DNA of 34,112 nt from Deltaproteobacteria bacterium (lineage in GTDB: Bacteria > Desulfobacterota > DSM-4660 > Desulfatiglandales > HGW-15), in assembly GCA_019313825.1 (NCBI GenBank), contig JAFDAM010000019.1:1-34112 (forward strand), written 5' to 3'. A program made the translations under genes and the position numbers. Under the pieces are notes generated by a model. The model did not search any database and was not told where the DNA came from. It was given only the letters and a program-made list of their open reading frames with translations. Below, piece after piece: positions 4,121-33,528 of this stretch (position 1 is its first letter; each line of letters opens with the position of its first letter).

Positions 4121-5299
4121 ATGAATACTGACCTGTCATTTATTACCAACGAAGAAAATCAAAGACTTAAAGAGCGGTTTGAAGTCCTTATTAAAGACAC
4201 TTCATTCTTTGACTGCCTTGTAGCTTATTTCTATTCCAGCGGGTTTCACGCTATCTACCATTCTTTAGAAAACACAGAAAAGATAAGAATTCTTATTGGA
4301 ATCAGCACAAGCAGACAAACTTACGAATTACTGGAAAACGCCAAAAAACAAAAACAGCAACAAATTGATTTCTCGCACGCTGAAACCAAGCAGGAAGTTG
4401 AAAATTTTGTTCAAAAAGAAATGGAGGATTCTGAGGATAATAGAAAAGTTGAAGAAGGCGTAAATAAATTTATAGAATGGGCTAAAAGCGGCAAACTGGA
4501 AATAAAAGCTTATCCGTCACAGAACATACATGCCAAACTCTATATTATGACGTTTACTGAAGGCGATAGGGATGCCGGACGCGTTATTACAGGCTCCAGC
4601 AATTTTACAAAGGCCGGGCTGGTTGACAATCTTGAATTCAACGTGGAATTGAAAAACAGAAGCGACTATGATTTTGCTAAAAATAAATTTGAGGAATTAT
4701 GGAAAAACGCTGTAGATGTCAGCGAAAAATATGTTCAGACAATTCAGGAAAAGACCTGGTTGAGTCAAAATATCTCACCGTACCAGTTATACCTGAAATT
4801 TCTCTACGAATATTTCAAGGATGAACTCAGCCAGACAGATGAAGTATTTGTTAAGTATCTCCCGCAGGAGTTTAAAAAGCTTGAATATCAGGAGCAGGCG
4901 GTTTTAAACGCCAAAAAGATACTTCTGGAATACGGCGGCGTTTTCATCTCCGACGTTGTGGGCCTGGGAAAAACATACATTTCAGCGATGCTGGCAGGTC
5001 AACTGGACGGAAGAACACTTGTTATCGCCCCGCCCGTGCTCCTGGAAAAATCCAACCCCGGGTCCTGGCCGAATGTCTTTTCAGACTTCAGGGTTCAGGC
5101 GGATTTTGAATCCATCGGAAAACTGGACGATCTGCTGGCCAGGGGAACGGACAAGTACACAAATATCATCATAGACGAAGCACACCGCTTTCGAACTGAA
5201 ACAACGATTTCCTATGAGAAACTGGCCGAAATCTGCCGCGCCAAAAGGGTTATCCTGGTAACGGCAACACCCTACAATATTGCCAATTGTTGTAAATGA
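4121..5299 (+). pseudogene. PLD-family (HKD) nuclease fused to SNF2/DEAD helicase, truncated after helicase motif III
   Basis: PLD-like 'IHAKLYIMTF...GSSNFTKAGLVDNLEFNVEL'; Walker A 'DVVGLGKTYIS'; 'IIIDEAHRFR'; 'VILVTATPYN' followed at once by IANCCK*. The helicase C-terminal half is missing. Confidence 0.75.
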
Positions 5300-11384: not shown

Positions 11385-12206
11385 TTAGTATTTGCTGATT
11401 ACCAAATTAAAGTATTCTTTAGCTTTATGCGTGACCAGTTCGAGGTATTCACGGAACAGGGTGTTGGCTTCAGGGCGTAGCCACTTGCTTGGTAGCAGTT
11501 CTTTAGGTAGATCGGGGTCAAAGAAGGGCAACTTGCGATATTCGTGAATAATACTAAACCTCTCTACAAAGCATTCGCTGGGCTTGATGTCTTTGCCTGA
11601 TCGTATGATTTTTTGCAGGGCTTCTAGTTTGGGACGATATCTAGTTAAAAAACTGGCGTACTTTTCATGTGTTTTGTTCAGATTCCAGGACCTGGAAACG
11701 ATCTCTTTTGGATCGGAAAAACCAAGGTGCTTGGCATGAAAGATATGGACGTTATTCCTGATTTTGAGTCTTTCAACTAATTCTTCGACCTCTTTTGTTA
11801 TGTCATAGGGCGAGATCCAGGTAGCATCACTTAGCGCACCGCATCCCATCCAACTCAGTTCAGTCCTCAGCCTGTCTCTGGCCTTCCGTTTCTGTTCAGG
11901 GATGGAGTAGGTGACAATCATCCAGGAGGAATCCCAGGGGATACCTTTTGGCCAGAAGATACGCTGTCCGCTTTTTGTCAATAGATTGCGGCCATCCTCT
12001 GTTAGGGAATAATAGCTTTTTCTGCCGACTTTTCTTACTTTCAATAGGTTTGCATGGCACATCCTCGATACTGCAGACCTGATGGATTGTTCGGACAGAC
12101 CAAAATTGCCAAGCAGTTTTACAATGCTGCCGATCCCTATCTCGCCGTTGGAGCCGCGGGCGTAATCACCATAGAGTGTGAGGAGAGCAGGCTGTGGATA
12201 AATCAT
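11385..12206 (-). CDS. paaX: PaaX-family transcriptional regulator
   Basis: N-terminal wHTH 'LLTLYGDYARGSNGEIGIGSIVKLLGNFGLSEQSIRSAVSRMCHANLLKVRKVGRKSYYSLTEDG', followed by 'WDSSWMIVTYSIPEQKRKARDRLRTELSWMGCGALSDATWISPYD'. Confidence 0.9.
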   Translation of the reverse strand: MIYPQPALLTLYGDYARGSNGEIGIGSIVKLLGNFGLSEQSIRSAVSRMCHANLLKVRKVGRKSYYSLTEDGRNLLTKSGQRIFWPKGIPWDSSWMIVTYSIPEQKRKARDRLRTELSWMGCGALSDATWISPYDITKEVEELVERLKIRNNVHIFHAKHLGFSDPKEIVSRSWNLNKTHEKYASFLTRYRPKLEALQKIIRSGKDIKPSECFVERFSIIHEYRKLPFFDPDLPKELLPSKWLRPEANTLFREYLELVTHKAKEYFNLVISKY

Positions 12207-12657: not shown

Positions 12658-12719
12658 TTGACATCATTCTATATCTCTCTATAATAGCCACTTTGTAGCT
12701 AAAATGTAATTAAATTGTA
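12658..12719 (+). promoter_or_regulatory. Sigma70-type promoter with downstream putative operator
   Basis: TTGACA (12658-12663), 16-nt spacer, TATAAT (12680-12685), then ACTTTGTAGCTAAAATGTAATTAAATTGTA (12690-12719), which recurs at 19893-19922. Confidence 0.75.
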
Positions 12720-12821
12720 GGCAATAGCTCAGTAATGTCCGGTTAGGATTTTGCAATGCTGTCATATGGAAGTTAATGGCCGGCGGGGGTCTCTTTTCAT
12801 GGTCGAACTGTATTATTTGCA

Positions 12822-13298
12822 GTGCATCCGCATGAAGCCGGAGGAAGGCGGAGAAGGTGGACGGGGGGCTTCCTGAACATGTACCGGATCATGGCGGGAT
12901 ATGGCGCCGTATCTATTGGCTCCCTGTATACATTCGGGCTTGAAGGGATATGGCTATACGATGCGGAGCAGAAAAAAATTGTGCCGCGTGAAATGCCGGA
13001 AGAGAAACCGAAGAATCGTGAAGAGGCCTGTCGCCTCCTGGCGGACTGGTTCTTAAGCAGACCTCTCTATCAGGTGTTCTATCATCCCCAAAACAAGATC
13101 GACATGATGGCAGCAATGGCACGGCAGTGGAATGTGGATGGTGTAGTCCTCCACATGAACCGTGGATGTGAAGGCCTTTCCATCGGAATTGCCGAGACCC
13201 GCCTTGGATTGATCAACGAAGGGCTCCAGGTCATGACCTACGAAGGGAACATGGGTGATGAGAGAGAATTTGATCTGGAAAAAACAGTGGTAAGATGA
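12822..13298 (+). pseudogene. 5'-truncated benzoyl-CoA reductase / 2-hydroxyacyl-CoA dehydratase catalytic subunit (PF06050-like) C-terminal stub
   Basis: 'YGAVSIGSLYTFGLEGIW...WNVDGVVLHMNRGCEGLSIGIAETRLGLINEGLQVMTYEGNMGDEREFD' is the C-terminal third of this family; Arg-rich unrelated-looking N-terminus. Confidence 0.75.
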
Positions 13299-13440
13299 GA
13301 GATCTTCCTGGAAATGCTCTCTGAAAAGAATAAATAAATATAAGAAAACATCCGTATTCTTATAGATGGAGGAATAGGAGTAACTTTTTTATAATACTCG
13401 CAGGACTTTTAACATTGAATGGATAAGGAGGAAAAGAATT

Positions 13441-18639: not shown

Positions 18640-19119
18640 ATGGAAGAAAAGGAACTCAAAGAAACAATTCTTGAATACGTGGAAACTCACAACAGTATGT
18701 CCCTGGCAACGGAGGGGGATGGCCTGCCCCATGCTGCTACGCTCTTCTATGTCAACATCGGGTTTCAGTTATATTTTGTGAGCAGCCCCTTAAGCAGGCA
18801 TGGAGAGAATATCGCCCGTAACGCAAGTGTATCCGCTACTATCAGTGAGGATTATTCCGGGTGGAGTGATATCAAGGGTATTCAGATGGAGGGCCGTGTG
18901 GAAAAGGTTGGGAGTATTATGGAGAACGGTCGCATTGTAAAGGCCTATGTGAAGAAGTTCCCTGATGTGGCGGATTTCTTCCTTTCTCCCAGAAAGCTCG
19001 GCCAGGCAATAGCAAACAAGGTGGCCAAGGTCAGGTTTTATAAGTTTGTGCCGACCAGGATACGCTTCATCAATAATGCCTTGGACTTCGGCCACCGGGA
19101 CGAATTGATACTTTCCTGA
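18640..19119 (+). CDS. Pyridoxamine 5'-phosphate oxidase-like FMN-binding protein
   Basis: 'MSLATEGDGLPHAATLFYVNIGFQLYFVSSPLSRHGENIARNASVSATISED...IKGIQMEGRVEKV'. Confidence 0.85.
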   Translation: MEEKELKETILEYVETHNSMSLATEGDGLPHAATLFYVNIGFQLYFVSSPLSRHGENIARNASVSATISEDYSGWSDIKGIQMEGRVEKVGSIMENGRIVKAYVKKFPDVADFFLSPRKLGQAIANKVAKVRFYKFVPTRIRFINNALDFGHRDELILS

Positions 19120-19647: not shown

Positions 19648-19892
19648 GCAATGGGGTAAGGTATATGGTGATTGACAGGCTTCAGGGAAGGATTGTGGAC
19701 GGCTCTGGAATGCCTGTTTCTAACCCTCTCACCCACATGTGGGATGCCCTGCTTCTCCCTGATATCCCTGTATCCGTATATGGAACGTACACCATGATCC
19801 AGGACCCTTTCTCCAAAGAGCATGATGCCGATTGCGCCCAGGGGCTCCTGATCCACCATCAAGGCATCATCTGTCATTTTTATGTTATAGTT

Positions 19893-19922
19893 ACTTTGTA
19901 GCTAAAATATGATTAAATTGTA
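19893..19922 (+). promoter_or_regulatory. Second copy of putative operator upstream of GNAT/BCR chimera
   Basis: ACTTTGTAGCTAAAATATGATTAAATTGTA; 28/30 matches to 12690-12719. Confidence 0.65.
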
Positions 19923-19935
19923 AATTATTAATTTA

Positions 19936-20310
19936 TTGGTCAAAAGGGTTGAATCATTGGATAACCTCCTGATAAGAGGACTAAAAATAGAGGATGCAGA
20001 GGATGTCAACAGGATCCTCAGGGCGATCACAGGGGAGCAGGAAAGGCTTGACATACAACAGATCATTGACGAACTGTCCAGAAGCGGCGGGGTTGCCAGT
20101 CTGGTTGCCGAGCTTGACGGCGCGATCGTTATGCAGCAGAAGTTCTGCGATCCCCATGAGATGGACATTCCGTTTGTCAGGAAGTTTCTGGAAGAGAACG
20201 ATGTTCCCACATACTTTCTCGAGGTTGACGTCACAACTCCGCTCGGTCCCTTTGCCATCCGTACGGAGGCATTCCACGAAACCCTGGAGGCAGAGGGCGA
20301 TCTGTTTTAA
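19936..20310 (+). pseudogene. Chimeric ORF: GNAT acetyltransferase N-terminus fused to benzoyl-CoA reductase/2-hydroxyacyl-CoA dehydratase subunit C-terminus
   Basis: 'LLIRGLKIEDAEDVNRILRAITGEQERLDIQQIIDELSRSGGVASLVAELDG' is GNAT-like; 'AIVMQQKFCDPHEMDIPFVRKFLEENDVPTYFLEVDVTTPLGPFAIRTEAFHETLEA' is the C-terminus of PF06050-type subunits. Confidence 0.65.
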
Positions 20311-20322
20311 TTTCATCTTAAC

Positions 20323-20410
20323 TAGTGTCCATCCGGAAATGGATCATTACCGGATGGAGCTGACAGCTGATAGCTTGAATCCATAAACGGTAGTTTATGG
20401 ATGGACACTA
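20323..20410. repeat. 88-bp palindromic element with 12-bp terminal inverted repeats
   Basis: TAGTGTCCATCC (20323-20334) / GGATGGACACTA (20399-20410), with internal perfect hairpin TCCATAAAC-ggta-GTTTATGGA. Confidence 0.75.
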
Positions 20411-20553
20411 ACTACTCATTCAAGGTTCAAGGGGTCAAGGTTTAGCTCTGGCGAATAGGCGACCATGAATCTGGTTGACTCTTTTAAGAAATTTGGAAAT
20501 ATAAAAGCTGGAGAATTAATATCTTTAAATAGATCTAAGGAGGTTTTAGAAAG

Positions 20554-21327
20554 ATGATAAGCGCAGGAATTGATTGTGGTGCTAAAAATACCAAGACTAT
20601 TATTATGAAGGATGGCCAGATCATCGGCAAAGGGTCGGTTCTAACGGGTTTTGACCAGGGGAAGGCTGTTGAGGATTCCCTGGAAATGGCCATTCAGGTA
20701 GCCGGTATTACAAGAGAAGATATTGATAAGATAGCCGGCACCGGATCAGGAAAGAATGCTGTTGAGATGGCTGATATGAAAGTGAGCGACATCAAGGCTA
20801 TGGGAAAGGGAGCACATAAAATTTTCCCGAATGCCAGAACGGTTACAGACGTTGGAGCTGAAGAGGGAAGGGCTGTCAAGCTGGATGAGAATGGAAATGC
20901 CGTTGATTTTGCCGTTAACGAAAAATGCGCGGCAGGCGCAGGCGCCTTTATCGAAGCCATGAGCAGGGCGCTTGAGACGCCTCTTGAGGAGATGGGACCG
21001 TTGTCTCTGAAATCGAATAAAGAGATTCCCATGAACGCCCAGTGCGCTATCTTCTCCGAATCCGAAGTGGTCGGGCTTATTCATGCCAAGACGGAAATAC
21101 ATGATATAAGCAAAGCCATCCATGATGCCATGGCGAGCCGTATTGTATCCATGATCCGCCGGATTGGTGTTAATCCCGATGTGGTCATGCTTGGAGGTGT
21201 TGGCAATAATCCGGGCTTTGTGGAATCCATGAGGCGTGAATTAGAACAGGATAAGATCTACCTGCCTGATGAGCCGGAATTTGGAGCAGCTGTGGGCGCT
21301 GCAATTGTGGCCTCAGAAGCGGAATAA
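20554..21327 (+). CDS. bzdP: Benzoyl-CoA reductase activase subunit, BzdP/BcrD-like (BadF/BadG/BcrA/BcrD ATPase family)
   Basis: 'GIDCGAKNTKTIIMKDG', 'TVTDVGAEEGRAVKLDENGNAVDFAVNEKCAAGAGAFIEAM', 'VVMLGGVGNNPGFVESM'. Confidence 0.8.
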   Translation: MISAGIDCGAKNTKTIIMKDGQIIGKGSVLTGFDQGKAVEDSLEMAIQVAGITREDIDKIAGTGSGKNAVEMADMKVSDIKAMGKGAHKIFPNARTVTDVGAEEGRAVKLDENGNAVDFAVNEKCAAGAGAFIEAMSRALETPLEEMGPLSLKSNKEIPMNAQCAIFSESEVVGLIHAKTEIHDISKAIHDAMASRIVSMIRRIGVNPDVVMLGGVGNNPGFVESMRRELEQDKIYLPDEPEFGAAVGAAIVASEAE

Positions 21328-21388: not shown

Positions 21389-22276
21389 ATGGCTGAAGAG
21401 AAAAAACAAGAGTTTTGGAGATGGACTGAGTCCAACTGGAAGAATCCCGACATAGATTGGAAGGATGCCAAATTCGTCACGAGCGGCATCGATGTGGGTT
21501 CGGTCAGTTCTCAGGCTGTTATTATGACTGATGGGGAGATCTTTGCTTATGGGAACATGAGGACAGGGTCGGATAGCCCCGACAGTGCCCGAAATGCCTT
21601 AAAATTCGCCATGGAAGCAACTGACATGCCTGAAGACAGGATGGATTACTGTGTAGGGACCGGCTATGGAAGGGTAAATGTCCCTTTTGCTGACCGAACC
21701 ATCACCGAGATTGCCTGCCATGCGCGGGGTGCAAATTTTATATACGGCCCTGAAGTACGAACTGTACTGGATATAGGCGGTCAGGATATCAAGGCCATCC
21801 AGTGCGATGAGAAGGGAAAGGTGACTAACTTCATTATGAATGATAAGTGCGCAGCAGGAACCGGTCGCGGCATGGAGGTCTTTTCAGACCTTCTTGGTGT
21901 GCCCATTAATTATGTGGGTGATCGGTCTTTCGATGTCAAGGAAGAGCCTCAGCCAGTGTCAAGCACGTGCGTTGTCTATGCCAAATCAGAGGCCACAAGC
22001 CTTTTAAGAAAGGGGTGGAGCACGGAAGAAGTGCTGGCAGCCTATTGCAGCGCCATGGCCGATCGTATCTATTCCCTTGTGGAAAGGGTTGGTGTGGAGC
22101 CGGAGTTTGCAGTAACCGGTGGACTTGCAAAGAATCGCGGTGTCATGGACCGATTAATGCCCATGGTTGGTCTTAAACGTATGAAGACCAAGTGGGACAC
22201 CCAGATAGCCGGCGGCGTCGGTGCCGCCCTTTTTGGATATGCACTATGCCAGAAGGGAAAGGGAAGAAAGAAATAG
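21389..22276 (+). CDS. bzdQ: Benzoyl-CoA reductase activase subunit, BzdQ/BcrA-like
   Basis: 'GIDVGSVSSQAVIMTDGEI', 'TVLDIGGQDIKAIQCDEKGKVTNFIMNDKCAAGTGRGMEVFSDLL', 'FAVTGGLAKNRGVMDRL'. Confidence 0.85.
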   Translation: MAEEKKQEFWRWTESNWKNPDIDWKDAKFVTSGIDVGSVSSQAVIMTDGEIFAYGNMRTGSDSPDSARNALKFAMEATDMPEDRMDYCVGTGYGRVNVPFADRTITEIACHARGANFIYGPEVRTVLDIGGQDIKAIQCDEKGKVTNFIMNDKCAAGTGRGMEVFSDLLGVPINYVGDRSFDVKEEPQPVSSTCVVYAKSEATSLLRKGWSTEEVLAAYCSAMADRIYSLVERVGVEPEFAVTGGLAKNRGVMDRLMPMVGLKRMKTKWDTQIAGGVGAALFGYALCQKGKGRKK

Positions 22277-22367: not shown

Positions 22368-22658
22368 ATGCTCGCGAATTATGGATATAAAGATGCTTCC
22401 GGCGATTTTTTTATCACCATTGATACGGATATCTGTAACGGCTGCGGCGACTGTGTATCAGCATGCCCAGCTGATATCTTTGAAGTGATGGATGAGGACC
22501 CGAACGACCCCCTAAGGGATGAGCCGGTAGCCGTTGTCTCAGCTGATAAAAAGAAGAAACTGAAGTATGAGTGCAATCCCTGTAAACCGGCATCCGAGAG
22601 GCCGCCCCTTCCCTGTGTAGAGGCTTGCAAGGCCGGTGCTATCTCTCATTCATGGTAG
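22368..22658 (+). CDS. 2[4Fe-4S] ferredoxin (putative BCR electron donor)
   Basis: 'DICNGCGDCVSACPADIFEV' and 'CNPCKPASERPPLPCVEACKAGAI' (second cluster with extended Cys spacing). Confidence 0.88.
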   Translation: MLANYGYKDASGDFFITIDTDICNGCGDCVSACPADIFEVMDEDPNDPLRDEPVAVVSADKKKKLKYECNPCKPASERPPLPCVEACKAGAISHSW

Positions 22659-31594: not shown

Positions 31595-32485
31595 ATGGTT
31601 GAGGAAAAAAAGGAGCGAAAAACAAGATATCAACAACTACCTTTACCCTTAAAAGTATATTTCCTTTCTGCGACTGCTGTTGGGATATTGCTTTCCATAT
31701 ATTTTATATTTGGCATGATTATTAAAGGGTTCACTTTCTACGACGCCCAATATTATTTTCTCCTGTTTGCACTTTTTGGATCATGTATCTTTCTGATTGC
31801 GCCGGAGAAAAAGAAACTCAAATGGTATGACCTTATTTGGGCCGCTGCAAGCTTTGCCTTGAATTTTTATTTTTTTACAAACGCTGAGCAGATAGCCTTG
31901 GTAGGCTGGCAGCCGGCCACTACACCGAATATCGTTATGGCAGTAATCTTATTCCTCATTTTTATCGAAGGAGCCAGAAGGGCATCCGGCGGAATTGCAT
32001 GGCCCCTTCTAGCTGTGCTATTCGCAATTTACCCCTTTTTTGCCGGCTACTTCCCCGGAATATTTCAGGGCGTTCCGAATGATTTCGTCAGCACCATATC
32101 TCTATATGCCTTTGGGGGAGATGGAATACTTGGGATACCGGGAAGGGTGATAGGCGGCATCCTGATGGGTTTCCTCGTCTTTGCCGGATTTCTGATAGCC
32201 CTGGGGGCGGGACAATATTTTCTTGATTTTTCCTATGCCCTTTTGGGGAAATACAGGGGTGGGCCTGCCAAGGTTGCCGTGATATCAAGCGGTTTCTTTG
32301 GGAGCCTGAGTGGTAGTGCTGCCGCAAATATTGTATCCACAGGCTCAGTCACCATACCGGCAATGAAGAGGATGGGGTATCCTGCCAACTACGCCGCGGC
32401 TATAGAGGCCTGCGCGTCAACCGGTGGGATGCTCATGCCCCCGGTGATGGGGGCGGGGTGGCTTTTATTATGGCGGCTATGGTAG
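31595..32485 (+). pseudogene. TRAP transporter fused 4TM/12TM permease, N-terminal part (frameshifted)
   Basis: 'PAKVAVISSGFFGSLSGSAAANIVSTGSVTIPAMKRMGYPANYAAAIEACASTGGMLMPPVMGAG', then out of frame (WLLLWRLW*). Confidence 0.8.
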
Positions 32486-33528
32486 GGATTCCATACCATA
32501 CTGTTGTTTTGGCTGCGGCTGTGCCGTCCCTTCTTTTCTACTGGGGGTTATTAGTTCAGGCTGATGCTTATGCGGCCAAGGTGGGCATGAAAGGGCTTCC
32601 GAAAGAAGAGATCCCGTCCTTGATGGGGGTGATTAAGAAGGCCTGGCCACTTTTAGCCGTCCTATTTTTCCTTATATACGGGCTTGTGGTCATGCAGCTG
32701 GAATATACTACCCCGTATTATGCCACAGTTATGTTACTGGTTCTTTCTTTTACTAATCGTGAAATCATGCTTACCCCTAAAAAATTTGTTGACAGTCTTT
32801 TTGTATCCGGCAAGGTAATAACCATAACATTGAATATCCTCGTGCCTGCAGGAATGGTCATATCGGCCATTGAGATAACCGGCGTCGGTGCGGCATTCGC
32901 ATCAGGGGTTTTAGGTGTTGGTGGAGGTAGTCTGTTCATGATCATGATCCTGGGCGTAATGGCTTGCTATGTAATGGGTATGGCGGGACTGATAATAAGC
33001 GCTTACATCTTCCTGGCCGTAACTATGGCACCGGCGATGATAGCGGCTGGTGGACTGAATGACGTTGCTGTGCATTTATTTATTATGTATTATGTGTTGA
33101 TAGCCTTTATTACACCACCTGTGGCGCCCGCTGCCTTTATTGCCTCTGCCGTAGCTGGATCTAAACCTTTACAGACAGGTCTCACATGTATGCGCCTCGG
33201 AATAGTGCTTTATTTTGTGCCCTTCTTTTTTGTCTTCAACCCGGCTTTGATTCTGCAGGGCCCTCTTTTTGAGACCATCTATCTGATCATTTTCTGTCTT
33301 GTTGGAATTTTAATTTTGGCTGGGGGGTTGGAGGGTTATCTTCTGTGGGTTGGCAAATTGAACATCTGGTCACGCCCGTTACTTGTTATAAGCGGATTCC
33401 TTATCGCTTTCCCGCAGATACCCACAACCATCATCGGGGTTCTGATTGGCGGGCTTGTTATCGCTATTCTCATGCGTAAGAAGGGATCCAAAGCAGAGGA
33501 ACCATTAACTAGTGATACACTTCCATAA
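32458..33528 (+). pseudogene. TRAP transporter fused permease, C-terminal part (frameshifted)
   Basis: Continues the same protein: 'AFIMAAMVGIPYHTVVLAAAVPSLLFYWGLLVQADAYAAKVGMKGL...'; overlaps the first ORF by 28 bp in another frame. Confidence 0.8.

Follow-up and report, generated by a model that had tools for sequence, protein, structure and literature searches.

The window, that is, the whole stretch of DNA that was analysed (34,112 nucleotides), is the entire contig C39 of genome bin G000 (2.27 Mb, 158 contigs, ~65% complete). It contains a bzd operon in which the P, Q and ferredoxin genes are present and the catalytic N and O genes exist only as fragments; in class I reductases, BzdNO serves catalysis and BzdPQ serves ATP-driven electron activation (PMC11971306). 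The features of this operon are the following:

19936–20310, forward strand: chimeric ORF, 124 aa as listed, a single open frame
19957–20124, forward strand: head, N-terminal half of a GNAT, acetyl-CoA-binding loop absent
20113–20310, forward strand: tail, last 64 residues of BzdN and stop codon; only Cys327 of the six [8Fe-9S] ligands kept
20114–20121, forward strand: junction TTGACGGC, codons Asp61-Gly62; candidate deletion microhomology
20319–20414 (duplications included), forward strand: MITE-like element in the expected place of bzdO, with inverted ends GTGTCCATCC at 20325–20334 and 20399–20408
20554–21327, forward strand: bzdP-like ATPase (activase) subunit, intact (PF01869, TIGR00241)
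21389–22276, forward strand: bzdQ, intact (TIGR03192, 429.7 over a cut-off of 380.2)
22368–22658, forward strand: ferredoxin (Fer4), intact, in the same place as in the bzd operons of relatives

The two halves of the chimeric ORF

An earlier note on this DNA had described the ORF at 19936–20310 as an in-frame chimera, with a GNAT head and the tail of a BCR/2-hydroxyacyl-CoA dehydratase subunit joined at a DGxxV motif, and the two halves do match two different families. Residues ~8–62 of the head align colinearly and free of gaps to GNAT proteins over ~55 residues, the best being the GNAT of locus L011 (50% identity), and those adjoining bzdN in relatives reach 36–43%. From the alignment, the native start is more likely the TTG at 19957, which coincides with the starts of the relatives' GNATs, is preceded by AAAAGGG and would give a protein of ~117 aa. 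The head alone gave no family match, and the whole ORF gave none to GNAT in Pfam, in the latter case because the conserved part of the GNAT does not lie within the ORF; specifically, the acetyl-CoA-binding motif A (R/Q-x-x-G-x-G/A) is missing and sits in the deleted half of the gene. The head was also considered as BzdN's own pre-tail region, to which weak alignments exist in some loci (e.g. L049, 39%), and these were judged to be chance extensions because the head matches GNATs better and colinearly.

The tail (residues 59–124) matches positions 283–342 of the 2-hydroxyacyl-CoA-dehydratase-type family PF06050 and positions 313–374 of 377 in NCBIfam TIGR03190 (BzdN; E 8e-22), with a score for the chimera of 77.5 bits against a cut-off of 453.8, which is below that of a full-length BzdN. 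Residues 59–120 align without gaps to residues 315–376 of the solved BzdN chain 8s02_B (E 7e-21), and among relatives the closest BzdN proteins share 74–83% identity with the tail. Judged by these alignments, the broader assignment of the earlier note narrows to BzdN specifically, the [8Fe-9S] subunit of bzd-type class I benzoyl-CoA reductase. The cluster in BzdN is held by Cys36, Cys73, Cys100, Cys263, Cys293 and Cys327 (PMC11971306), and the equivalent of Cys327 in the tail is the Cys of QQKFC. Alignment with both the GNAT and the BzdN of relatives places the junction at Asp61-Gly62 in TTGACGGC, as the DGxxV proposal had it, and the peptide across it reads ...VAELDGAIVMQQK...

No gene spanning both halves was found among 61 relatives, 247 genomes of the phylum and a scan of GTDB species genomes. 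An AlphaFold2 model of the chimera has a mean pLDDT of 44 with zero residues above 70, which is weak evidence given an alignment of only 15 rows.

Gene order in relatives and the missing segments

The order GNAT-bzdN-bzdO-P-bzdQ-ferredoxin, all on one strand, is present in four genomes of the same taxonomic order as the source (G032, G038, G050 and G048); a fifth genome of that order, G036, has GNAT-bzdN-bzdO only, its contig ending after bzdO. The full arrangement also occurs in a distant archaeal MAG (L044), and in G043 the GNAT gene has a damaged bzdN start behind it, where the contig ends. In five relatives the GNAT has 145 residues, bzdN encodes 382–388 aa and bzdO 437–439 aa, and the relatives' N and O proteins score at or near the NCBIfam bzd-type cut-offs. 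Because GNAT adjoins bzdN in the five genomes of the order and in L044, the parents of the chimera are taken to be ancestral neighbours.

Counted by locus, a GNAT lies directly upstream of bzdN in L031 (4884–9939), L034, L035, L011 and L044, and a small conserved protein (VKLSGNSGRIYLPPDWVG...) precedes the GNAT in L031, L034 and L011.

Three relatives have 1260 bp between the Asp-Gly site of the GNAT and that of BzdN, and a fourth has 1267 bp. In the three relatives with 1260 bp, GNAT and bzdN share one reading frame, and therefore a deletion between the two Asp-Gly sites would automatically be in frame. The homologues of the two break sites have 4, 6, 7 and 7 identical nucleotides in the four relatives' own genomes, which makes a microhomology at the break in the source genome plausible, its own parental DNA being gone. 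The recombination at a short shared sequence that the earlier note had put forward would be in keeping with these 4–7 nt between the paired sites of each relative and with the TTGACGGC that the window has there.

The relatives carry bzdO between bzdN and bzdP; in the window it is absent between the tail and bzdP, and a 243-bp spacer with the MITE-like element is found there instead. Just downstream of the bzdN stop, the sequence retains a likeness to the L038 spacer between bzdN and bzdO. The element proper (20325–20408) is flanked by a 6-bp duplication, TAACTA (20319–20324 and 20409–20414), and its other genomic copies are likewise bracketed by TAACTA or TAATTA. Such paired duplications indicate flanks that were adjacent before insertion, and therefore an earlier loss of bzdO rather than an assembly collapse at the repeat. 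No second copy of BzdN or BzdO was found in G000 (a bin ~65% complete). The idea that an intact bzdN or bzdO exists on another contig of the bin was rejected; HGD-D on contig C62 is a different, weakly double-cubane-like protein.

The bzdO fragment, repeats and constraint

Part of bzdO does persist further upstream, and with it a set of repeats:

12662–12719, forward strand: 58-nt repeat, copy 2, upstream of the bzdO fragment
12729–12874, forward strand: high-copy MITE-like element, left half (~60 genomic matches)
about 12864–13336 (12822–13336), forward strand: bzdO fragment, C-terminal ~155 codons, 7 kb upstream of the chimera
19865–19922, forward strand: 58-nt repeat, copy 1, upstream of the chimera

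The fragment begins at about residue 280 of BzdO and runs to the C-terminus, is ~62% identical to its closest relatives and retains only Cys380 of the three [4Fe-4S] ligands. A premature TGA interrupts it at 13296–13298; in relatives this position encodes an amino acid, mostly Phe, Leu or Ile. Upstream, the fragment abuts the interior of the high-copy repeat, and the join lies at GGGGCTTCCT (12865–12874), letters that could be common to the repeat and to the bzdO codons for Trp-Gly-Phe-Leu. The high-copy element itself has long inverted ends (TAATGTCCGGTTAGGATTTTGCAATG...) and occurs at ~60 other places in G000, which is unusually dense for a 2.3-Mb bin. A dispersed 29-bp repeat, CCTGATCCACCATCAAGGCATCATCTGTC, at 19847–19875 is found at ~30 places in G000, several of them near the MITE-like element.

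The two copies of the 58-nt direct repeat are 76% identical, and their core occurs only twice in the whole bin. The repeat is possibly an old operon promoter or operator, perhaps for the PaaX-like regulator at 11385–12206; an upstream scan for a sigma-70 promoter gave no match. The regulator gene, on the reverse strand, adjoins the bzdO fragment and encodes a PaaX-family repressor with 220.7 bits, below the TIGR02277 cut-off of 264.55. On the simplest reading, the chimera and the bzdO fragment would both go back to a single operon or to its partial duplication.

Since dS is saturated in most comparisons, rates were compared and no date is given. Against the intact BzdN of L038, the tail has a pN/pS of 0.13, equal to that of the same segment between intact relatives, i.e. 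no relaxed constraint, and P, Q and the ferredoxin also look constrained. The BzdO fragment has a dN of ~0.34 where 0.14–0.15 was expected. This contrast in rates indicates that the BzdO fragment either became unconstrained earlier or is a diverged paralogue, and that the deletion in BzdN is recent. The tail codons look recently functional, as they would if the loss were recent or if intact genes had gone unassembled.

Elsewhere in the window, a one-base frameshift in a G-rich stretch near 32450–32470 splits a TRAP permease (DctM, 31595–33528) into two ORFs; it may be a sequencing error or a pseudogene, and hints at minor sequence errors or additional decay in the contig. A PNPOx-like gene lies at 18640–19119. 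A PLD-helicase protein of 392 aa (4121–5299) stops shortly after the first helicase motifs and is probably another truncated gene.

Origin of the chimera and comparison with known systems

The ORF is most likely what an in-frame deletion of ~1.26 kb left behind in a class I benzoyl-CoA reductase operon of the bzd type that is in decay, a reading for which the identities of the parents, the ancestral gene order in relatives, the missing parts and the absence of the fusion elsewhere were observed. It is supported because both parent genes are direct neighbours in relatives, and the damage is wider than the scar that the earlier note had offered as one option, with bzdO also missing and its fragment 7 kb away. 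The deletion would have taken the second half of the GNAT gene together with five sixths of the neighbouring bzdN, counted from its start; a short shared sequence (6–8 nt within TTGACGGC) probably guided the break, through either recombination or replication slippage. bzdO would have been lost from between bzdN and bzdP, where a MITE-like element now stands, and its remnant 7 kb upstream would have been cut inside another such element, the ATPase subunits and ferredoxin staying intact. The operon seems to have been dismantled here by MITE-like elements and short repeats, an example that may prove more useful than the chimera. The intact frame across the join and the unrelaxed tail count against a scar, and may reflect a very recent event, a retained function or an assembly fault.

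The deletion reading rests on one assembly of G000, whose bin may mix strains, and it infers the correctness of that assembly along with the break mechanism and the lack of function. The main rival, which is unlikely, is therefore an artefact of assembly or binning, with an intact GNAT-bzdN-bzdO in the living organism and a contig that misjoins distant pieces via MITE-like repeats or strain mixture. A bin of 158 contigs at ~65% completeness, high-copy repeats close to the lesions, a tail under undiminished constraint and the residual sequence errors at which the TRAP permease frameshift hints would all fit such a fault. However, GNAT and bzdN meet within unique coding sequence where the common stretch is ~8 nt at most, less than the usual k-mer misjoin would need, and the copies of TAACTA that bracket the element at 20325–20408 indicate that its flanks belong together. 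The bzdO fragment, diverged to twice the expectation and with a premature stop, is no product of misassembly; the missing halves are on no separate contig, and an artefact at the GNAT-bzdN join would leave the other lesions unexplained.

If it is expressed, the product of the deletion is most likely a non-functional remnant, because the acetyl-CoA loop and five of the six cluster cysteines are gone, the fusion has no homologue in the genomes searched and its fold is predicted at very low confidence. For these same reasons (catalytic and cofactor parts lost, no other genome with the fusion, a poorly predicted fold), the new protein born by fusion that the earlier note had also suggested is not supported. 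A selected, functional fusion, in which the N-terminal half of the GNAT and the C-terminal strand-helix unit of BzdN form a small regulator or adaptor, is accordingly very improbable: the open frame, a plausible ribosome-binding site, an upstream element of its own common to a second locus and the still conserved tail would suit it, but one of six cluster ligands, no acetyl-CoA loop, a pLDDT of 44 with nothing above 70, the lack of any homologue of the fusion and the missing partner subunit bzdO do not. A more specific version, slightly more doubtful still, is that the old operon promoter still drives the chimera, which is retained as a small protein, e.g. one binding the surviving BzdPQ through its BzdN tail, with activase and ferredoxin now serving another dehydratase-like reductase such as HGD-D on C62. 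As to a switch to class II of the benzoyl-CoA pathway, no ring-opening hydrolase scored above the TIGR03200 cut-off, and of six AOR-family proteins the four compared included none that was clearly BamB. That the 124 aa form one native, undescribed family, as a single open frame might suggest, is next to impossible and was rejected: the halves match two families that are separate full-length neighbours in relatives, a gene order that contradicts it, and no genome searched has a homologue spanning both in one gene.

What looks like a new fusion gene in a metagenome-assembled genome can be the scar of an operon deletion, and the case cautions against classing the source organism among the class I benzoyl-CoA reducers on the strength of its intact P, Q and ferredoxin genes. 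As a lead, the GNAT-bzd arrangement of relatives is worth more than the chimera itself. Specifically, a GNAT directly before bzdN in several genomes suggests an acetylation-linked control of anaerobic benzoate degradation there; no GNAT in a bzd operon was reported in the titles and abstracts of the literature searched. BadL, a GNAT of Rhodopseudomonas palustris, makes acetamidobenzoates that derepress benzoate genes (PMC6191541). It is likewise a GNAT in an anaerobic benzoate gene set, and by analogy a BadL-like role is possible for the intact genes of the relatives, whereas the copy in the window is truncated.

The GNATs of the relatives' bzd operons (L031 4884–5321 and others) align to the head over residues 8–62 without gaps and hold the same position upstream of bzdN, but their acetyl-CoA loop, which reads VDPRYMGRGIGK, was deleted with the C-terminal half in the chimera. 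Compared with the BzdN of Aromatoleum sp. CIB (PDB 8s02, PMC11971306), the chimera is without ~310 N-terminal residues, five of the six [8Fe-9S] cysteines and the partner BzdO. It resembles the deletion-born gene remnants (pseudogene fusions) of bacteria, in which an internal deletion likewise joins neighbours, here probably across a short shared sequence, with other lesions nearby; it differs in that its frame happens to have been kept, and hence it is called as a protein by gene finders.
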